This document shows, one piece after another, positions 7,585 to 28,995 of a stretch of 33,624 nucleotides of DNA (positions are counted from its first letter, which is position 1; each line of letters begins with the position of its first letter). Origin of the DNA: Deltaproteobacteria bacterium (GTDB taxonomy: Bacteria; Desulfobacterota; Desulfuromonadia; Geobacterales; Pseudopelobacteraceae); NCBI GenBank assembly GCA_021779135.1, contig JAJYBH010000024.1:1-33624 (forward strand), given 5' to 3'. The notes beneath the pieces were generated by a model that saw only the letters and a program-made list of their open reading frames with translations, did no database searches and had not been told where the DNA came from. Made by a program: the position numbers and the translations under genes.

Positions 7585-8072
7585 CTTTTCATCCACCACA
7601 TACAACCGTCCAAGGCTTCCCCGTCCGCACCAACGGCCTGTCCCACATCCCGCGCCGGGCACAGGGCATCCAGGCCCTGGCCGTGTGGAAGGGCGAGAAC
7701 CCCGGCGCTCCAGATGCCTGGCTCCGGCAGGAGATCGGCATGGCCTTCCAGCAGATGGTCTGCCTGGCCCTGGATGGCGCTCCTGCTGCCGAGATGCTAC
7801 CGCTGACCGCTGAGATGTGGGTCATGACCATCGGCTTCGGCCTGAGAGAGGATCTCGATCGTCAACGGATCCGCGACGGCTTCATGCAGCTCTATCGCAA
7901 GCTCAAGAAGTGGCCCCAGCCGATTGAGCTGACCGACGTACTGCCAGGCCGCCCCAAGCGCTCCGGATTGCCGGAGCCGGTTATGAGCAAAACAGATCAT
8001 GCCGAGGGTGCCCGCAAGCTCCAGGACATCATGGATATGCTGAATAAAGGGGAGAGCGACCATGTCAAGTAG
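7581..8072 (+). CDS. Conserved Mu-like early protein of unknown function
   Basis: 163 residues, ATGA-overlapping with the preceding gene and overlapping gemA by 11 bases. It is mainly helical: an Ala/Leu-rich middle (AWLRQEIGMAFQQMVCLALD...AEMWVMTIGFGL), a basic Pro-rich linker (VLPGRPKRSGLPEP), and a C-terminal helix (GARKLQDIMDMLNK). Proteins of this shape sit just before gemA in many Mu-like prophages, as I recall. No catalytic motif is visible and function cannot be assigned. Confidence 0.7.
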   Translation: MTFHPPHTTVQGFPVRTNGLSHIPRRAQGIQALAVWKGENPGAPDAWLRQEIGMAFQQMVCLALDGAPAAEMLPLTAEMWVMTIGFGLREDLDRQRIRDGFMQLYRKLKKWPQPIELTDVLPGRPKRSGLPEPVMSKTDHAEGARKLQDIMDMLNKGESDHVK

Positions 8073-8484
8073 AGCCAACCTGGCCAAGATCCACATCGCC
8101 AAGAAAGAACTCAACATGGATGACGATATCTATCGCGACATCCTTCACACACAGTTTAAAAAGACTTCAAGTGCCAATTTAAGCGATTTTCAATGTGTGA
8201 AGCTATTGCAACACTTCGAGTCTCTGGGCTGGAAACAGAGCGAGGGCAAACCTAAGAAGAAAGCAAACCATGGCCGCAAGCCGCACAACATGAACAAGTC
8301 GCAGTACCTCTCCAAGATAGAGGCACTGTTGGCCGAGGCCGGCCGCTCCTGGGCCTATGCCGACGGCATGGCCAAGCACATGTACAAGATTGACAACATC
8401 CAGTTCTGCCAGCCGGATCAGCTGCGCGGCATCGTCGCGGCCCTGGTGAAGAACGCGAAAAAAGAAGGGCGGAGGGTGGCATGA
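8062..8484 (+). CDS. gemA: GemA-like regulatory protein (DUF1018)
   Basis: 140 residues. The opening RANLAKIHIAKKELNMDDDI followed by YRDIL is the DUF1018/GemA signature, as is the C-terminal WAYADGMAKHMYKI...DQLRGIVAAL. In Mu, GemA (gp16) alters host gene expression and DNA supercoiling-sensitive genes, and the gene lies immediately before mor, as here. GGGGAGAG precedes the ATG by about 5 bases and the TGA overlaps the mor ATG. Family assignment is confident; action in this host is inferred. Confidence 0.9.
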   Translation: MSSRANLAKIHIAKKELNMDDDIYRDILHTQFKKTSSANLSDFQCVKLLQHFESLGWKQSEGKPKKKANHGRKPHNMNKSQYLSKIEALLAEAGRSWAYADGMAKHMYKIDNIQFCQPDQLRGIVAALVKNAKKEGRRVA

Positions 8485-8846
8485 AAAAACGCCAGGTAGA
8501 CACAACCAAGCGCGGGAAATATACCGAAGTCCTGGAGCAGCTTGTCGCGGGGATCGCCGCCGGCTACATGGAAGAATTCAAGGATCCGGCAGAGATTGCC
8601 CGCAAGCGCGCAGAGCTGGCTATGAGCCGGATCCAGGCCGAGGCATCCGGCACCGGGATCTACATCGCCAAGGGGCACCTGTGGTTTATCAGTGAGAAGC
8701 ATCGCCGCATCTATCGACGCTTCACCGGTACCAACCACGCCGCCCTGGCGCGTGAGTTTGACCTGACTGAGCGGCAGATCTACAGCATCATTGCGGCAGT
8801 GGGGCAAGAAGAATTTAACCGTAAGCAATGTAAGTTGTTTGAATAA
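8481..8846 (+). CDS. mor: Mor/C-family transcription activator
   Basis: 121 residues. The N-terminal dimerisation part (VLEQLVAGIAAGYMEEFKDP) and C-terminal helix-turn-helix (HAALAREFDLTERQIYSIIA) match the Mor/C family, which binds palindromes near -35 and recruits sigma70 polymerase. It is the only Mor/C-type gene in the window, so it may serve both the middle and late roles, acting at the three TTTGAAnCCCTTCAAA elements. GGAGGG precedes the ATG. The stop TAA is part of the first attC-like site (GAATAAC), so the gene is fused to the cassette array at its last codon. Confidence 0.9.
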   Translation: MKKRQVDTTKRGKYTEVLEQLVAGIAAGYMEEFKDPAEIARKRAELAMSRIQAEASGTGIYIAKGHLWFISEKHRRIYRRFTGTNHAALAREFDLTERQIYSIIAAVGQEEFNRKQCKLFE

Positions 8847-13017: not shown

Positions 13018-13065
13018 AGCAGCACCTCCAACAGGTTAACCGTATATACTACCAACAAGCAAAAC

Positions 13066-13094
13066 TTGACATCCTAATCCCGTCGCGATATAAG
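13066..13094 (+). promoter_or_regulatory. Sigma70-like promoter just upstream of terminator 1
   Basis: TTGACA (13066-13071), 17-bp spacer and TATAAG (13089-13094). A transcript starting near 13101 would meet the terminator hairpin after about 10 bases. A comparable pair occurs before terminator 2 (TTGACA, 17 bp, CATAAG) and a weaker one before terminator 3 (GTGACA, 17 bp, CATATG). Confidence 0.5.
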
Positions 13095-13110
13095 GCGATA
13101 AATTACCAGC

Positions 13111-13145
13111 AAAGCCCCTTTCTGTCTACCAGAGAGGGGCTTTTT
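13111..13145 (+). terminator. Intrinsic terminator 1
   Basis: A 13-bp stem (13111-13123 with 13131-13143, containing AAAGCCCC and GGGGCTTT, one G-U pair) with a 7-base loop, followed by a T5 tract. The A-rich 5' side would make it work in both directions. It ends the early/integron transcription unit before the lysis operon. Confidence 0.88.
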
Positions 13146-13146
13146 G

Positions 13147-13191
13147 TTTGAATCCCTTCAAATAGAATCTCCCCGACTCATCCCGTAATAT
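13147..13191 (+). promoter_or_regulatory. Late promoter element 1 (lysis operon)
   Basis: Palindrome TTTGAATCCCTTCAAA (13147-13162), TAGAATC (13163-13169), then TAATAT (13186-13191) 16 bp later as a likely -10. The same element occurs at 21681 and 28950, each directly behind a terminator. The absence of a good -35 and the dyad placed just upstream of it fit a Mor/C-activated promoter. Confidence 0.75.
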
Positions 13192-13241
13192 CCCCCACAT
13201 CGAACATACATGACCGGCGGCCAATGCCGACCCAAGACGCC

Positions 13242-13287
13242 CTTCGACTCCGCTCAGGGAGCTTTCGTTTGGTGAGCGAAGTCGAAC
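13242..13287. repeat. REP-like inverted repeat in the lysis leader
   Basis: CTTCGACTCCGCTCAG (13242-13257) and its near complement GTGAGCGAAGTCGAAC (13272-13287) form a 14-bp hairpin with one mismatch in the 5' leader of the endolysin gene. The same 16-mer family recurs at 21366, 21415, 21626, 21659 and 32109. No T-tract follows here. The remaining 13192-13316 shows no other gene or site. Confidence 0.7.
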
Positions 13288-20772: not shown

Positions 20773-21363
20773 ATGGACGGCATGATAAAGGTAAGCGACA
20801 ACTTTGACGAAGGTGCCAGGCTCTTCGACCGCATCGCCCGCAAGGCCGGAAATACGGTTGGCTTGATGAAGGCCATCGCCGGGATCATGCATCACGAGGT
20901 GGAAGAGAACTTTGCCAACGAGGGCCGCCCCAACAAATGGAAGCCCCTGGCTCAGTCTACCATCCGCGCCCGACGCAAAAAGGGCAACTGGCCCGGCAAA
21001 ATCCTCCAGGTGCGCGGCCGATTGGCCACGTCCTTCCAGACTGATTATGACAACAACAAAGCGGTCTGCGGCACCAATGTGATCTACGCCGCCATCCAGC
21101 ACTTCGGCGGCACAACCAAACATGCCGCCCGCATGCGGATCTTGCACTTTGGTGACACCCACGCTGCCCGCATGGGCAAGGACCGCTATGGTCCTGGTCG
21201 GGCAACCCGCAGTTTCGCCAAGCCAGGCAAGGCAACCTTTGGCATGAAGGTGCCGGGTCACGCCTACAGCGCCACTATCCCGGCCCGGCCCATTCTTTAC
21301 ATCAGTCAGGGCGGTTTGCAGAAGATGCTCGACGCCGGCAAGGCTTGGCTGAGAAGTGCATGA
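20773..21363 (+). CDS. G: Virion morphogenesis protein (Mu gpG / phage_tail_S family)
   Basis: 196 residues. The N-terminus (LFDRIARKAGNTVGLMKAIA...EVEENFANEGRPNKWKPLAQ) and middle (ILQVRGRLATSF...VIYAAIQHFGG) are typical of the phage virion morphogenesis family, which includes Mu gpG and P2 gpS. It is involved in tail completion or head-tail joining. It is the last gene before a 390-base gene-free stretch with repeats, terminator 2 and late element 2. Confidence 0.92.
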   Translation: MDGMIKVSDNFDEGARLFDRIARKAGNTVGLMKAIAGIMHHEVEENFANEGRPNKWKPLAQSTIRARRKKGNWPGKILQVRGRLATSFQTDYDNNKAVCGTNVIYAAIQHFGGTTKHAARMRILHFGDTHAARMGKDRYGPGRATRSFAKPGKATFGMKVPGHAYSATIPARPILYISQGGLQKMLDAGKAWLRSA

Positions 21364-21365
21364 CC

Positions 21366-21430
21366 CTTCGACTCCGCTCAGGGCACATTGGTGGCTGAGC
21401 GGAGCATCCGGTGGCTGAGCGGAGTCGGAG
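21366..21430. repeat. REP-like repeat cluster after gpG
   Basis: CTTCGACTCCGCTCAG (21366-21381), a partial CTGAGCGGAG (21395-21404) and CTGAGCGGAGTCGGAG (21415-21430) can pair in alternative hairpins directly after the gpG stop. The next 159 bases, 21431-21589, contain no gene or motif I can support. Confidence 0.7.
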
Positions 21431-21589
21431 CGCGAAATTTGCCCTGTGAGGGCCGACAGATAACCAGAACGCCGTGCCCCCCGCAGTCGATTCTGTTCGC
21501 CCAGCACACGGAAGTTTAAAGACTGTTTTAACACGGTTCCAAAACTCATCGGCGCGTCAATTTTCAAACCCGGCTCAAAGACTCCCCGC

Positions 21590-21618
21590 TTGACATAAAT
21601 TCCCTGCCGTGTCATAAG
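21590..21618 (+). promoter_or_regulatory. Sigma70-like promoter just upstream of terminator 2
   Basis: TTGACA (21590-21595), 17-bp spacer, CATAAG (21613-21618). It resembles the pair before terminator 1 in spacing and in the following GGCGA. A transcript would begin at the base of the terminator stem, so productive output is doubtful without antitermination. Confidence 0.4.
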
Positions 21619-21625
21619 GCGAATG

Positions 21626-21679
21626 CTTCGACTTCGCTCAGCAGCCGTAACCCGGTAACTGAGCGGAGTCGAAGTTTTT
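21626..21679 (+). terminator. Intrinsic terminator 2 built from REP-like arms
   Basis: A 16-bp stem of CTTCGACTTCGCTCAG (21626-21641) with CTGAGCGGAGTCGAAG (21659-21674), including one T-G pair, a 17-base loop and T5 (21675-21679). It separates the terminase/portal unit from the capsid operon. Confidence 0.85.
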
Positions 21680-21680
21680 A

Positions 21681-21725
21681 TTTGAAGCCCTTCAAATAGA
21701 ATCCCGCCCCCATTGTCCGTAGGAT
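21681..21725 (+). promoter_or_regulatory. Late promoter element 2 (protease/capsid operon)
   Basis: TTTGAAGCCCTTCAAA (21681-21696), TAGAATC (21697-21703), and TAGGAT (21720-21725) 16 bp on as the possible -10. Its place upstream of the gpI-like gene mirrors the Mu late promoter PI. Confidence 0.75.
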
Positions 21726-21754
21726 GCTTTCCGAAGTACGCACCGGAGGCATCT

Positions 21755-22222
21755 ATGAAAGGCAATCCCGATATCATTTCCGCACTGAACGCCCGCATGG
21801 TTGACGAGCTGACCGCCATCGATCAGTACTCTGCACATTTGGCACGGGTAGCCGTCTGGCAATATCCTGGCCTGGTCGCCTACCTGGAAGAGCGTATCGC
21901 CGACGAAACCAAACACTTCAACACGTTGCGGGCCTGGATCGTTTTTCAGGGCGGCAGCCTTGCCACCGGAATCATCAACCGCGTTAATGTCGGCGCTGAT
22001 ATCAAACAGATGCATTTATTTGACCGCACCGCAGAAGAAACCGCCATCACCCTCTATCGCGACCTGGTGCAACTATGCATTCAGTTCAAGGATGCCGATA
22101 CACGCGCCGTGATTGAGGATATCCTGTCTGACGAAATAGACCACCTCCGCGATCTGGAAGCGCAGCTGATCCAGATTGAGCAGATGGGTATTCAAAACTA
22201 CCTGTCGGCCCGGCTGGCATAA
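21755..22222 (+). CDS. Bacterioferritin-like diiron protein
   Basis: 156 residues from ATG 21755 (GGAGGC 5 bases upstream), close to bacterioferritin (about 158). It opens MKGNPDIISALNARMVDELT, and the ferroxidase ligands fall at exact Bfr positions: E18, E51, H54, E94, E127 and H130. The tail IEQMGIQNYLSARL also matches. Position 52, Met in haem-binding bacterioferritin, is Thr here, so haem binding between subunits is unlikely. The expected activity is Fe(II) oxidation and storage or peroxide removal in a 24-mer. It is the first gene of a phage head operon, which is unusual; virion or infection-time roles are open. Confidence 0.92.
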   Translation: MKGNPDIISALNARMVDELTAIDQYSAHLARVAVWQYPGLVAYLEERIADETKHFNTLRAWIVFQGGSLATGIINRVNVGADIKQMHLFDRTAEETAITLYRDLVQLCIQFKDADTRAVIEDILSDEIDHLRDLEAQLIQIEQMGIQNYLSARLA

Positions 22223-22231
22223 GGAGCAACC

Positions 22232-23233
22232 ATGGCAAAGAAACTCGAAATATTTAAACCAGGCACTTTCACGGCGATGGACGGCACCGAATATACGTTT
22301 TCTGAAGCCGATGTGCGGACCACGGCCGCGGTTTATAATCCGGATCTGCATGAAGCGCAGTTGGTAGTCGGCCATCCCCGGCACAATGCGCCATCCTACG
22401 GCGGCGTAAAATCACTGGAATTCAGCGACGTGCTTTTAGCCGACCATCAGCGTGTTGACCCTGCCTTTGCTGAAATGGTCAATGCCGGGCGCTTTCCCAA
22501 AATTTCCGCCAGTTTTTATTCACCCAATTCTCCGAACAACCCGGTTCCCGGCACATTCTATTTGCGGCACGTCGGTTTTCTCGGCGCTATGGCTCCAGCG
22601 GTCAAAGGGCTCAAGACGGCCAGTTTCGCTGCCTTTGAAGAAGGCGTGATCGAATTTGGCGACTACGAGGACCGCGTCGTTGTCCGTATGTTCCGTAGCA
22701 TTAAAAACTATCTGATCGGGACCGTCGGGCAGGAGCAGGCCGATAAGGTTATCGACGAATACGATCTCACCTATCTCACGGAAGACGCCATGACACCGGA
22801 TCAGAAATGCGATCCGGAAGAGTTGTCCTATCACGAAAACGACAAAGGAGAAACTATGCTGACCCAGGCACAAATTGCAGAAAAAGAGGCCGATCTGACA
22901 CGCCGTGAAAATGCGTTGAAGGTCGAAGAAACAACCAAGAAACATGCCGGTAACCTGTCCTTTGCCGAAGGCTTGGTCAAAGAGGGCAAGCTGTTGGCCG
23001 CCAATAAGGCCGCCCTGGTAGGCGTGCTGGATTTCGCCGCCGGTGTCATCGAAGGCGACACCATCGAATTCGGCGAAGGTGACGGCAAAAAAAGCCTGTC
23101 TCCCCTGGATACGATCAAGACCCTGTTCGGTTCCATGCCCAAGGTGATCGAGTTCAGTGAATTCGATTTCAGTGAGGGCACAGAAAAGAAACTGCAGGCC
23201 GCGGCTACCATCGACGTTTCAAAATACGTTTAA
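22232..23233 (+). CDS. I: Prohead protease/scaffold (Mu gpI-like)
   Basis: 333 residues. The N-terminal two thirds match Mu gpI-type proteases (LVVGHPRHNAPSYGGVKSLE, and GRFPKISASFYSP, with the Ser of KISASFY the likely nucleophile and the H of VGHP a likely partner). The C-terminal part is charged and helical (QIAEKEADLTRRENALKVEE), the scaffold. The protease processes the scaffold during capsid maturation. An internal start at 22856 would produce the scaffold alone. AAGGAG precedes the ATG. Confidence 0.92.
   Translation: MAKKLEIFKPGTFTAMDGTEYTFSEADVRTTAAVYNPDLHEAQLVVGHPRHNAPSYGGVKSLEFSDVLLADHQRVDPAFAEMVNAGRFPKISASFYSPNSPNNPVPGTFYLRHVGFLGAMAPAVKGLKTASFAAFEEGVIEFGDYEDRVVVRMFRSIKNYLIGTVGQEQADKVIDEYDLTYLTEDAMTPDQKCDPEELSYHENDKGETMLTQAQIAEKEADLTRRENALKVEETTKKHAGNLSFAEGLVKEGKLLAANKAALVGVLDFAAGVIEGDTIEFGEGDGKKSLSPLDTIKTLFGSMPKVIEFSEFDFSEGTEKKLQAAATIDVSKYV
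22856..23233 (+). CDS. Z: Internal in-frame scaffold start (Mu gpZ-like)
   Basis: ATG 22856 is in the protease frame (codon 209) and has AAAGGAG 5 bases upstream, an ideal ribosome site in the middle of a gene. The 125-residue product begins MLTQAQIAEKEADLTRRENA and consists of the helical scaffold region. In Mu the scaffold Z is made the same way from within I. The internal ribosome site is visible; separate translation is inferred. Confidence 0.75.
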   Translation: MLTQAQIAEKEADLTRRENALKVEETTKKHAGNLSFAEGLVKEGKLLAANKAALVGVLDFAAGVIEGDTIEFGEGDGKKSLSPLDTIKTLFGSMPKVIEFSEFDFSEGTEKKLQAAATIDVSKYV

Positions 23234-23267: not shown

Positions 23268-23627
23268 ATGACAATCCAAGGCAGAACCGCAGTATTCACC
23301 CGCGACGAACGTCGCGCCCAGAACCCGGCCGGGCACCCGCCGGTTGTAATTGGTGCCGCACTCAAAGTCAACGATGGCACCTATCTTCTGGGGCAGATCC
23401 TGAAGCGTGACGTCGATGGGATCACAATGGTCCGCGCGGCTGAAGGGGACACCTTCTGTGGTGTCCTGGACAGCACCGTCGATACAACCCAACAGGCATC
23501 CGGTAACGTGGTCATCCACGGCAGCGTGGTAGTTGGCAACCTGGTGATCGGAGCAGCTGGCGCCGAGGTCGCCCCTACCCAGGCCGCTCTGCTCAAACTC
23601 CAGACGGAAGGCATTTTCCCGGCGTAA
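23268..23627 (+). CDS. Head decoration protein (lambda gpD-like)
   Basis: 119 residues, AAAAGGAG before the ATG. It is beta-rich with little charge in the body: VVIGAALKVNDGTYLLGQIL, GDTFCGVLDSTVD, GNVVIHGSVVVGNLVIG. This fits the HDPD/lambda D decoration family that trimerises on the expanded capsid. Its place between protease/scaffold and major capsid protein supports this. Confidence 0.85.
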   Translation: MTIQGRTAVFTRDERRAQNPAGHPPVVIGAALKVNDGTYLLGQILKRDVDGITMVRAAEGDTFCGVLDSTVDTTQQASGNVVIHGSVVVGNLVIGAAGAEVAPTQAALLKLQTEGIFPA

Positions 23628-23662: not shown

Positions 23663-24688
23663 ATGGTAAACATTCGTAACCTCTTCACCCGCGATGCAAT
23701 CATCCAGTACCTGCAGATCCTCGGCCCCATGTTTCCGACCCGTGTTATGGACACGGTCTTTACCCGTCGTCCGCAGCAGCCCGGCCCCCTGATCGGCTCC
23801 GACATCATCAAGCAGTCGGTCAAGGCGATGCCTCTGGGTCGCCGTGGTTCCCGCTCCATCACCATCGGCGGCGCTGCCGGCCAGACCGAATTCTACGAGC
23901 CGTACCCGATTCACCCCGATATTTCCGTCACCGGTGCCGATCTGAACAACCTGCGCATGTTCATGCAGCAGGGTAACAGCCAGGAGTTGCTCAAAGTCTG
24001 GGCTCAGTCAAAAACCGAGATCCTTCGTCAGACCGTCCGCAATACCGCCGAGGCCATGTGCGCTACGACCCTTTCCGGAAAACTGCAGTGGCCGGTCCAG
24101 ATCGAAGGCGGCGGGTTTGAAACCTACGAGGTTGACTATGGCGCACCTCAGACACTGGCACCCGGCGAGTTCAAATATTGGGACGATCCCGCTACCAAAG
24201 TAGCTGACATCCTCAATATGTTCATCCTGATTCAGGTCCTGTTCCAGCGTTCGGGTATTGGCGGCCGGATGGCTTTCTGGGCAGGTAAGGACGCCTTCCT
24301 GACACTGTTTACTCTGGCCTCCAGGATCCTGACCTCGACAAAACTGCTCGTTGAAGCCGGTGTGTCGATGCAGCTGGGCGAGAACTTCGTCATGATCGGC
24401 AATAACAAAATCGAACTGGCTGCCGAAGAATATTGGAATCCCCAGACGGCAGCTTTCGTCCCGATCGTGCCGGTAGATACCTTCCAGGCCATTGCTCTGG
24501 ATGCCGGTCACCAGATGCCCTATGCCTCGATCGATGACCTGGACGGTGGTCTGCAGGCCATGCCGTTCTTCATCAAGCCGCTCAAGACCGATAACCCCAG
24601 TGGCTACAGCCTGATCGCTGAATCCAAACCTTTGCCGGTTGTCAATCCGCTCGGCCTGTTCCGGCTGCAGGTGCTGGCCCCGGTCTGA
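23663..24688 (+). CDS. Major capsid protein (phage E family)
   Basis: 341 residues; ribosome site AAGGAG. It reads as the lambda gpE-type HK97-fold family: NLFTRDAIIQYLQILGPMFP, RVMDTVF, then a central domain (FWAGKDAFLTLFTLASRI, followed by LTSTKL) and the C-terminal DGGLQAMPFFIKPLKTDNPS with a SLIAESKPLPVV strand. The pairing with a D-like decoration protein is the usual one for this family. It forms the icosahedral shell. Confidence 0.93.
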   Translation: MVNIRNLFTRDAIIQYLQILGPMFPTRVMDTVFTRRPQQPGPLIGSDIIKQSVKAMPLGRRGSRSITIGGAAGQTEFYEPYPIHPDISVTGADLNNLRMFMQQGNSQELLKVWAQSKTEILRQTVRNTAEAMCATTLSGKLQWPVQIEGGGFETYEVDYGAPQTLAPGEFKYWDDPATKVADILNMFILIQVLFQRSGIGGRMAFWAGKDAFLTLFTLASRILTSTKLLVEAGVSMQLGENFVMIGNNKIELAAEEYWNPQTAAFVPIVPVDTFQAIALDAGHQMPYASIDDLDGGLQAMPFFIKPLKTDNPSGYSLIAESKPLPVVNPLGLFRLQVLAPV

Positions 24689-24729: not shown

Positions 24730-24776
24730 TCATTGATACAAACACCCACATACGTTTGATACGAGGAGACCTACTC

Positions 24777-25214
24777 ATGAAAAAGCTATCTCTGATCAGT
24801 ATACTGGCCCTCTCGATACTGATAATCGCCGCCGCTGCTTTTGCCATCACCACCTACACGGTAAAGCCCGGTCAGCCGGTTTATGCAGATGGTGTGATTG
24901 TCCAGAATGCCACCGCTCCCGCACCTCTCAAGGCCGGTAACGTCTGTATCGTCAAAACCATCCATAATGCCGGCGACATTGCCACCTTCAATCTGTACAG
25001 CTCCAACAGCTGGTACCGTCAGGCCAATTGGCAAGCGGTCAAAAGCGCCGACGGCAGCGCATTCATCGTCCAGCGCAAACTGGGCAACAATACTACCGGC
25101 AGCGTGGGTGACCATGGCAGTCTGACCGTCAACCGGGAGTACAGTACCTACACTCTCTCGACGTTCGGGAATGCCACCAGCGCCTCAGTGACACTCTGTC
25201 AGGACCGCAATTAA
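24777..25214 (+). CDS. Exported protein between capsid and tail-completion genes
   Basis: 145 residues from ATG 24777 (GAGGAG upstream); an earlier in-frame ATG at 24756 lacks a ribosome site. The signal peptide is clear (KKLSLISILALSILIIAAAA, cleavage near AFA). The mature part is beta-rich and Ser/Thr/Asn-rich (TTYTVKPGQPVYADGVIVQN, YSSNSWYRQANW, YSTYTLSTFGNATSA). No family recognised. An exported protein in a virion operon is out of place; it might be a moron acting on the cell envelope or a surface protein. Confidence 0.7.
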   Translation: MKKLSLISILALSILIIAAAAFAITTYTVKPGQPVYADGVIVQNATAPAPLKAGNVCIVKTIHNAGDIATFNLYSSNSWYRQANWQAVKSADGSAFIVQRKLGNNTTGSVGDHGSLTVNREYSTYTLSTFGNATSASVTLCQDRN

Positions 25215-28794: not shown

Positions 28795-28876
28795 AAGCTA
28801 TGACCGGGCCTTTGATGAGCTGAACCATCCGCCCAAAGCTGGTAAAACGTATAAAGTCCGGCGCGAAAAAGCGTGA
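28715..28876 (+). CDS. Downstream tail-chaperone frame (Mu gp42-like, 53 residues)
   Basis: Frame from ATG 28715 to TGA 28874-28876, open upstream to 28658, overlapping the chaperone gene. The sequence (MRRDILVLKKLGFTTKEVVN, then MSRGMIKSYDRAFDELNHPP and a basic tail) is compact and protein-like. It lies in the frame reached by a -2 shift (equal to +1) from the chaperone frame. GCGGAG is about 10 bases upstream of the ATG, so independent initiation is also possible. Confidence 0.72.
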   Translation: MRRDILVLKKLGFTTKEVVNMSRGMIKSYDRAFDELNHPPKAGKTYKVRREKA

Positions 28877-28901
28877 CAAATTGATCTGAATCTGGCATAT
28901 G
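28873..28901 (+). promoter_or_regulatory. Weak sigma70-like promoter upstream of terminator 3
   Basis: GTGACA (28873-28878, overlapping the preceding stop), 17-bp spacer, CATATG (28896-28901). It is listed because the same spacing precedes terminators 1 and 2. Alone it would be weak evidence. Confidence 0.25.
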
Positions 28902-28912
28902 TCCAGAAAACG

Positions 28913-28948
28913 AAAAGCCCTTCTCCCTATCTCGGAGAGGGGCTTTTT
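28913..28948 (+). terminator. Intrinsic terminator 3
   Basis: A 14-bp stem (28913-28926 with 28934-28947, AAAAGCCC...GGGCTTTT with one T-G pair), 7-base loop and T5. It is nearly the same design as terminator 1. It ends the capsid/sheath/tube transcript. Confidence 0.88.
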
Positions 28949-28949
28949 G

Positions 28950-28995
28950 TTTGAAACCCTTCAAATAGAATCCCCCTGCCTATCACTGCTATGCT
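28950..28995 (+). promoter_or_regulatory. Late promoter element 3 (tape measure/tail operon)
   Basis: TTTGAAACCCTTCAAA (28950-28965), TAGAATC (28966-28972), then TATGCT (28990-28995) 17 bp on as the likely -10. Transcription would start about at the tape-measure ATG. Confidence 0.72.

Follow-up and report, generated by a model that had tools for sequence, protein, structure and literature searches.

A bacterioferritin-like gene (bfr) leads the late head operon of a Mu-like phage, and its product keeps an intact ferroxidase site, has lost the haem ligand Met52 and groups with other phage bacterioferritins (Bfrs) in a single clade. The window, meaning the whole stretch of DNA analysed here, is an entire 33.6-kb contig within a 3.4-Mb assembly. 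We put at about one in two the probability that this protein is a phage-adapted haem-less ferroxidase, acquired once, fixed in head modules, made late and acting as a one-way iron sink.

The window was identified as a Mu-like phage by genes encoding an S24-type repressor, Mu transposase, MuB-like AAA ATPase, GemA and a Mor-family activator, followed later by terminase, portal, F- and G-type genes and genes for a Mu-I-type head protease, a decoration-like protein and a major head protein. The bfr gene (21755..22222, 155 aa) has a Shine-Dalgarno-like ccggagg, read from the sequence, at 21743..21749, and the gene for a Mu G-type virion morphogenesis protein (20773..21363) lies ahead of its leader. 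The Mu-I-type head maturation protease gene (22232..23233; phrog_976, 9e-95) starts 9 nt past the bfr stop codon, which its own Shine-Dalgarno sequence overlaps (TAAGGAG), and is followed by a head decoration-like gene (23268..23627), weakly matched to phrog_49 (E = 0.005), and by the major head gene (23663..24688; phrog_29). From the morphogenesis gene to the major head gene these features are on the plus strand, and the position of bfr at the head of the capsid operon is as given in the preliminary description. The major head ORFs of two related phages, L003 (2513-2645) and L096 (10995-11148), carry an in-frame hydrophobic, signal-peptide-like N-terminal extension, which is absent from the start of the window ORF (23663). 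The product of 24756-25214, directly after the major head gene, is a small protein that apparently bears a signal peptide, and homologues of it were found at the matching place in L003, L096 and L097.

Assignment of the bfr product rests on its translation, profile and PDB matches, a ligand alignment and an AlphaFold model. The protein matched PF00210 (Ferritin) with an E-value of 6.1e-21 and 75.3 bits, passing the Pfam gathering cut-off of 24.5, and the bacterioferritin profile TIGR00754 with 4.6e-21 over profile positions 1-153 of 157, at 75.5 bits, below the NCBIfam equivalog cut-off of 125.55 bits. The best bacterioferritin in a PDB sequence search had an E-value of 4.3e-19, identity to solved bacterioferritins was approximately 30%, and PHROGs contained no family matching the protein. 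The AlphaFold2 monomer model (pLDDT 96.2) superposed on solved Bfrs with a TM-score of about 0.95-0.98 at ~0.9 A. Its helices (residues 5-35, 38-64, 83-110, 114-144 and 146-152) form a predicted four-helix ferritin fold with a short fifth helix, and the length is within the ~155-160 aa taken as the criterion for Bfr. A BFVD structure search with this model also returned A0A6J7WPK9, A0A6J7XDU5 and A0A6J7WIS1, proteins of 333-763 aa from uncultured phages that are named Prohead protease; these weak matches (E 0.008-0.14) possibly represent a ferritin-like domain fused to a head protease.

In the alignment to E. coli Bfr, whose numbering is used here, the protein has E18, Y25, E51, H54, E94, E127 and H130, and Thr replaces the axial haem ligand Met52. 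Both the canonical register of E18, E51, H54, E94, E127 and H130 and the replacement of Met52 by Thr, as described earlier, were thus recovered. The PDB matches give an identical register. Residue 46, a metal-binding His in E. coli Bfr, is Glu in the window protein and is variable among cellular relatives too. From the intact di-iron site, we infer that the protein would oxidise Fe(II). Haem in Bfr mediates electron transfer for iron release (PMC8945002), and the lost haem ligand predicts the loss of haem-mediated reductive release, which would make the protein a one-way sink. The loss of Met52 beside an intact ferroxidase site is not novel by itself, since the same state is found in cellular proteins, namely, Magnetospirillum Bfr1 and P. 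aeruginosa FtnA.

A conserved leader precedes bfr, running from a promoter-like TTGACA-N17-CATAAG (21590..21618) through a terminator-like, repeat-type hairpin, CTTCGACTTCGCTCAG...CTGAGCGGAGTCGAAG-TTTTT (21627..21679), to the dyad TATTTGAA-GCCC-TTCAAATA plus GAATC (21679..21703), all on the plus strand. The leader ends in the 23-nt motif TTTGAANCCCTTCAAATAGAATC, of which three plus-strand copies were found in the window (0 expected from shuffles), ahead of an endolysin-like gene (13147..13169), bfr and a tail tape measure-like gene (28950..28972), the bfr copy being the second; a search across the 3.4-Mb host genome found none outside these three. The endolysin-like name is a tentative one based on the sequence, and Pfam gave no match. 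The three late leaders span 13060-13170, 21590-21703 and 28868-28972, and each comprises a promoter-like TTGACA-N17-hexamer (GTGACA in the third), a terminator hairpin and a TTTGAA-NCCC-TTCAAATA dyad. Phage Mu has separate late promoters, to which this layout is similar. The generic promoter scan of the window did not list TTGACA-N17-CATAAG because CATAAG lacks the final T; the element is kept in L003 and other Mu-like phages. In sister leaders, the stem at the hairpin position is a GAGAGGGGC-TTTTT terminator. Intergenic regions contain repeats of the CTTCGACTCCGCTCAG...CTGAGCGGAGTCGAAG type (21364-21435, 21627-21674 and 13240-13286), and one of them has apparently replaced the usual terminator stem at the bfr leader, with hairpin and T-run kept.

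The leader also precedes the head protease gene I or the tape measure gene in the Mu-like phages L126-L130, L134 and L153 and precedes bfr in L003, and in L097 the dyad alone was found ahead of I. Since the leader stands directly before I in phages lacking bfr, bfr sits between the late leader and I. A predicted promoter followed immediately by a terminator suggests control by antitermination or attenuation, plus the Mor/C-family transcription activator (8481..8846, plus strand; PF08765, 2.1e-20) as a candidate regulator of the late leaders. The late-operon leader and the short spacing to the head protease agree with the earlier proposal that bfr is expressed late with the head genes, and as the first gene of this operon, bfr is expected to be co-produced with capsid proteins.

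The Bfrs of the window, L003, L175, L177 and L178 formed one clade (ultrafast bootstrap 99, SH-aLRT 93), and a quick tree from which the longest branches had been removed gave a support of 92. Met52 is lost in all five (T in the window, L003 and L178, V in L175 and R in L177), and the ferroxidase ligands are retained in L175, L177 and L178, as are all six in L003. Cellular homologues at 40-45% identity all keep Met52, and the sampled cellular Met52-less Bfrs (K52, Gammaproteobacteria) formed a distant clade. A copy of the host gene was ruled out as the source, because the host's own Bfr (C186) is ~39% identical to the window Bfr, retains Met52 and falls among the Geobacterales Bfrs. A possible sister of the haem-less clade is the L163 Bfr (support 92/73), in which Met52 is present. 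Its gene (8001-8474) lies between the capsid and tail genes of a structural region and adjoins methyltransferase-like and glycosyltransferase-like genes, named from sequence only.

Phage Bfrs of the L175, L177 and L178 type were obtained from viral-contig scans with alignment-based queries, and a single-sequence query against viral contigs gave no match. Two further scans of viral contigs returned no clearly new clade members, with weak matches in L181 and L194. The INPHARED matches (Salmonella and Acinetobacter records of 130-580 kb and Pseudomonas phage Y5) were set aside, as they resemble host contigs or unannotated records. Cellular Bfrs were sampled incompletely, so the clade could also include a cellular member. 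In our best explanation, bfr would have been gained once by phages and thereafter fixed in head gene modules.

Bfr genes of this clade recur beside head genes, with a spacing to the head protease gene of 8 nt in L003, 12 nt in L175 and 3 nt in L178. The order in L175 is portal, endolysin, Bfr, head protease (phrog_94), decoration and major head; in L178, portal, Bfr, head protease (phrog_53) and decoration; and in L177, terminase (terL), Bfr and portal. Blastp among the head proteases of the window, L175 and L178 showed no mutual similarity, and among the head proteins of the window, L175, L177 and L178, no useful similarity was found except between the L175 and L178 portals (25%). Outside the clade, the Bfr gene of L173 (Q52) immediately precedes head-tail joining, portal and major head genes, and L172 has one between a head-tail adaptor and a major head gene; other viral Bfrs, for example that of L168, are located away from head genes. 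The rarity of ferritin-like genes in phage structural operons, claimed in the preliminary description, holds for Mu-like phages, but such genes recur in the head modules of unrelated phages. This recurrence suggests a function linked to virion production; with few independent cases, L175 and L178 being sisters, the placement is suggestive and not proof.

A Bfr inside the prohead or capsid, or bound to it, as encapsulin-like cargo, a scaffold aid or protection of virion DNA against iron and reactive oxygen species, would account for its repeated position within head modules and directly upstream of non-similar head proteases among otherwise dissimilar head genes, although the operon start is a frequent landing site of accessory genes as well. 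Family 1 encapsulins encode a ferritin-like cargo just ahead of an HK97-fold shell (PMC8346489), but the phage Bfrs stop at the Bfr core length with no C-terminal targeting extension, and a 12-nm Bfr cage would be bulky inside a DNA-filled head. Host Bfr peptides were detected in CsCl-purified AXL1 virions (PMC9206674), where they may be co-purified contamination, and the ferritin-fold BFVD matches among proteins called Prohead protease point the same way but are weak. We regard such an association as possible, albeit doubtful. A broader proposal, which we consider unlikely, is that the pairing of a dedicated haem-less ferritin and HK97-lineage head machinery arose repeatedly in tailed phages, such that the ferritin would function as part of the prohead or virion, an iron-handling capsid parallel or ancestral to iron-storing encapsulins.

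The haem pocket and two-fold interface residues of the window Bfr differ from those of a typical bacterioferritin. Many positions that hardly vary among 48 cellular homologues are altered in the window and L003 Bfrs, several of them at the dimer interface, and changes fixed in both Mu-like copies include L15M, M31R/Q, A55F, I59R, R61W, L65Q, P69L, E128I and D132R, among others. Therefore, assembly of the window Bfr may differ, and the altered interface could disfavour homo-assembly. The phage subunit might instead join the Met52 Bfr encoded by the host, dilute its haem sites and block Bfd-driven iron release. Co-assembly of Met52-less, ferroxidase-positive subunits with haem-binding ones occurs in Magnetospirillum (PMC6529640) and P. 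aeruginosa (PMC8945002), and the top PDB sequence matches include the hetero-oligomeric Bfr chains 9h1u and 9iig. However, considering the low identity to C186, the changed interface residues and the location of clade members in phages without assigned hosts, we find a mixed host-phage cage quite improbable.

Among Mu-like phages, an 85%-identical Bfr is encoded at the matching site in L003, a contig of a Geobacteraceae MAG that is apparently identical with G525/L149. L096, whose portal is 75% identical, retains a remnant with residues 1-24 and ~87-155 in different frames, which indicates that bfr was dispensable there. A recent isolated insertion, the outcome that the preliminary description had set beforehand as refuting its reading, is thus ruled out by the intact L003 copy and the L096 remnant. 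In a survey of 81 loci that have an I homologue preceded by 700 bp or more of sequence, the window and L003 counted in, bfr was found only in these two and as the remnant in L096, and ~78 related loci were without it. A bfr upstream of I is thus no general trait of Mu-like phages and is restricted to one small subgroup. Between the window and L003, bfr had a dN of ~0.091 and a dS of ~1.10 (dN/dS ~0.08), indicating strong purifying selection; its dN was the lowest among six genes compared, whereas the neighbouring genes had dN values of 0.26-0.49 with dS saturated or nearly so. The somewhat lower dS of bfr may reflect exchange of the cassette after the neighbours diverged. A passenger gene (moron), neutral or of slight benefit and inserted behind a strong late promoter, would fit the many loci without bfr, the decayed L096 copy and the usual first-in-operon site of accessory genes, but is very unlikely in light of the low dN/dS and dN, the ferroxidase ligands retained across the clade and the single origin with repeated placement in head modules.

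In the one-way iron sink that we favour, Bfr would be produced together with capsid proteins, its di-iron site would oxidise Fe(II) with H2O2 or O2, and the iron would be held as Fe(III). Without haem-mediated reduction this iron would stay bound, which would keep Fenton chemistry off newly packaged DNA and capsids. The host lineage, related to Geobacteraceae, has heavy iron traffic. A purely metabolic role leaves the repeated placement next to the head protease unexplained, which counts against the iron sink.

Several parts of this picture are already known, namely, phage bfr as an auxiliary metabolic gene (AMG), phage Dps and catalase, Met52-less Bfr and ferritin-loaded encapsulins (PMC8346489). 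In the open-access literature, we found no description of a haem-less Bfr clade that is specific to phages and linked to head modules, and nothing relevant on ferritin genes in Mu-like prophages or beside a prohead protease. A phage-only ferritin clade next to unlike head proteases makes the coupling of iron proteins and capsids by phages testable, and it gives direct access to the question of how phages deal with iron and peroxide in the late infection of iron-rich anaerobes.

The window protein resembles typical Bfr (TIGR00754, E. coli 1bcf and P. aeruginosa BfrB) in fold, length and di-iron ligands, and differs in being phage-encoded in a head operon and in the loss of Met52. It shares the presence of the ferroxidase site and the absence of Met52 with Magnetospirillum Bfr1 and P. 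aeruginosa FtnA (formerly BfrA), but these are cellular genes, and Bfr1 is encoded beside a haem-binding partner gene, of which none was seen in the window phage. Bfr1 assembles poorly alone, has low activity and needs its partner (PMC6529640). In a tree without Bfr1 and FtnA, the window clade is apart from the Lys52 gammaproteobacterial Bfrs. A viral Bfr from Vrana Lake sediment is likewise phage-borne, under purifying selection and read as an iron-oxidising AMG, but that gene belongs to a predicted Bathyarchaeia virus and derives from Thermoproteota (PMC10904782), whereas the window bfr falls in its own bacterial-phage clade and leads a head operon. The Dps-like and Mn-catalase genes of Gratiaviridae and Lactobacillus phages are also phage ferritin-superfamily enzymes, proposed to serve in oxidative stress (PMC8008677). 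They belong to the Dps or catalase family, and those of Lactobacillus phages lie near DNA-metabolism genes, unlike the window bfr at the start of the head operon.

Encapsulins are regarded as phage capsids that were domesticated and carry ferritin-like cargo. As with family 1 encapsulins whose cargo is ferritin-like or a Bfr, the window has a ferritin-like gene immediately upstream of an HK97-lineage shell block. The window Bfr was rejected as encapsulin cargo since it has no C-terminal targeting peptide (it ends ...NYLSARLA, at core length), and an encapsulin shell beside bfr was rejected because the neighbour is a phage head protease and the shell a phage major head protein. Unlike a family 1 encapsulin, the phage in the window is complete, has genes for portal, protease and tail, and carries the protease gene between bfr and the shell.
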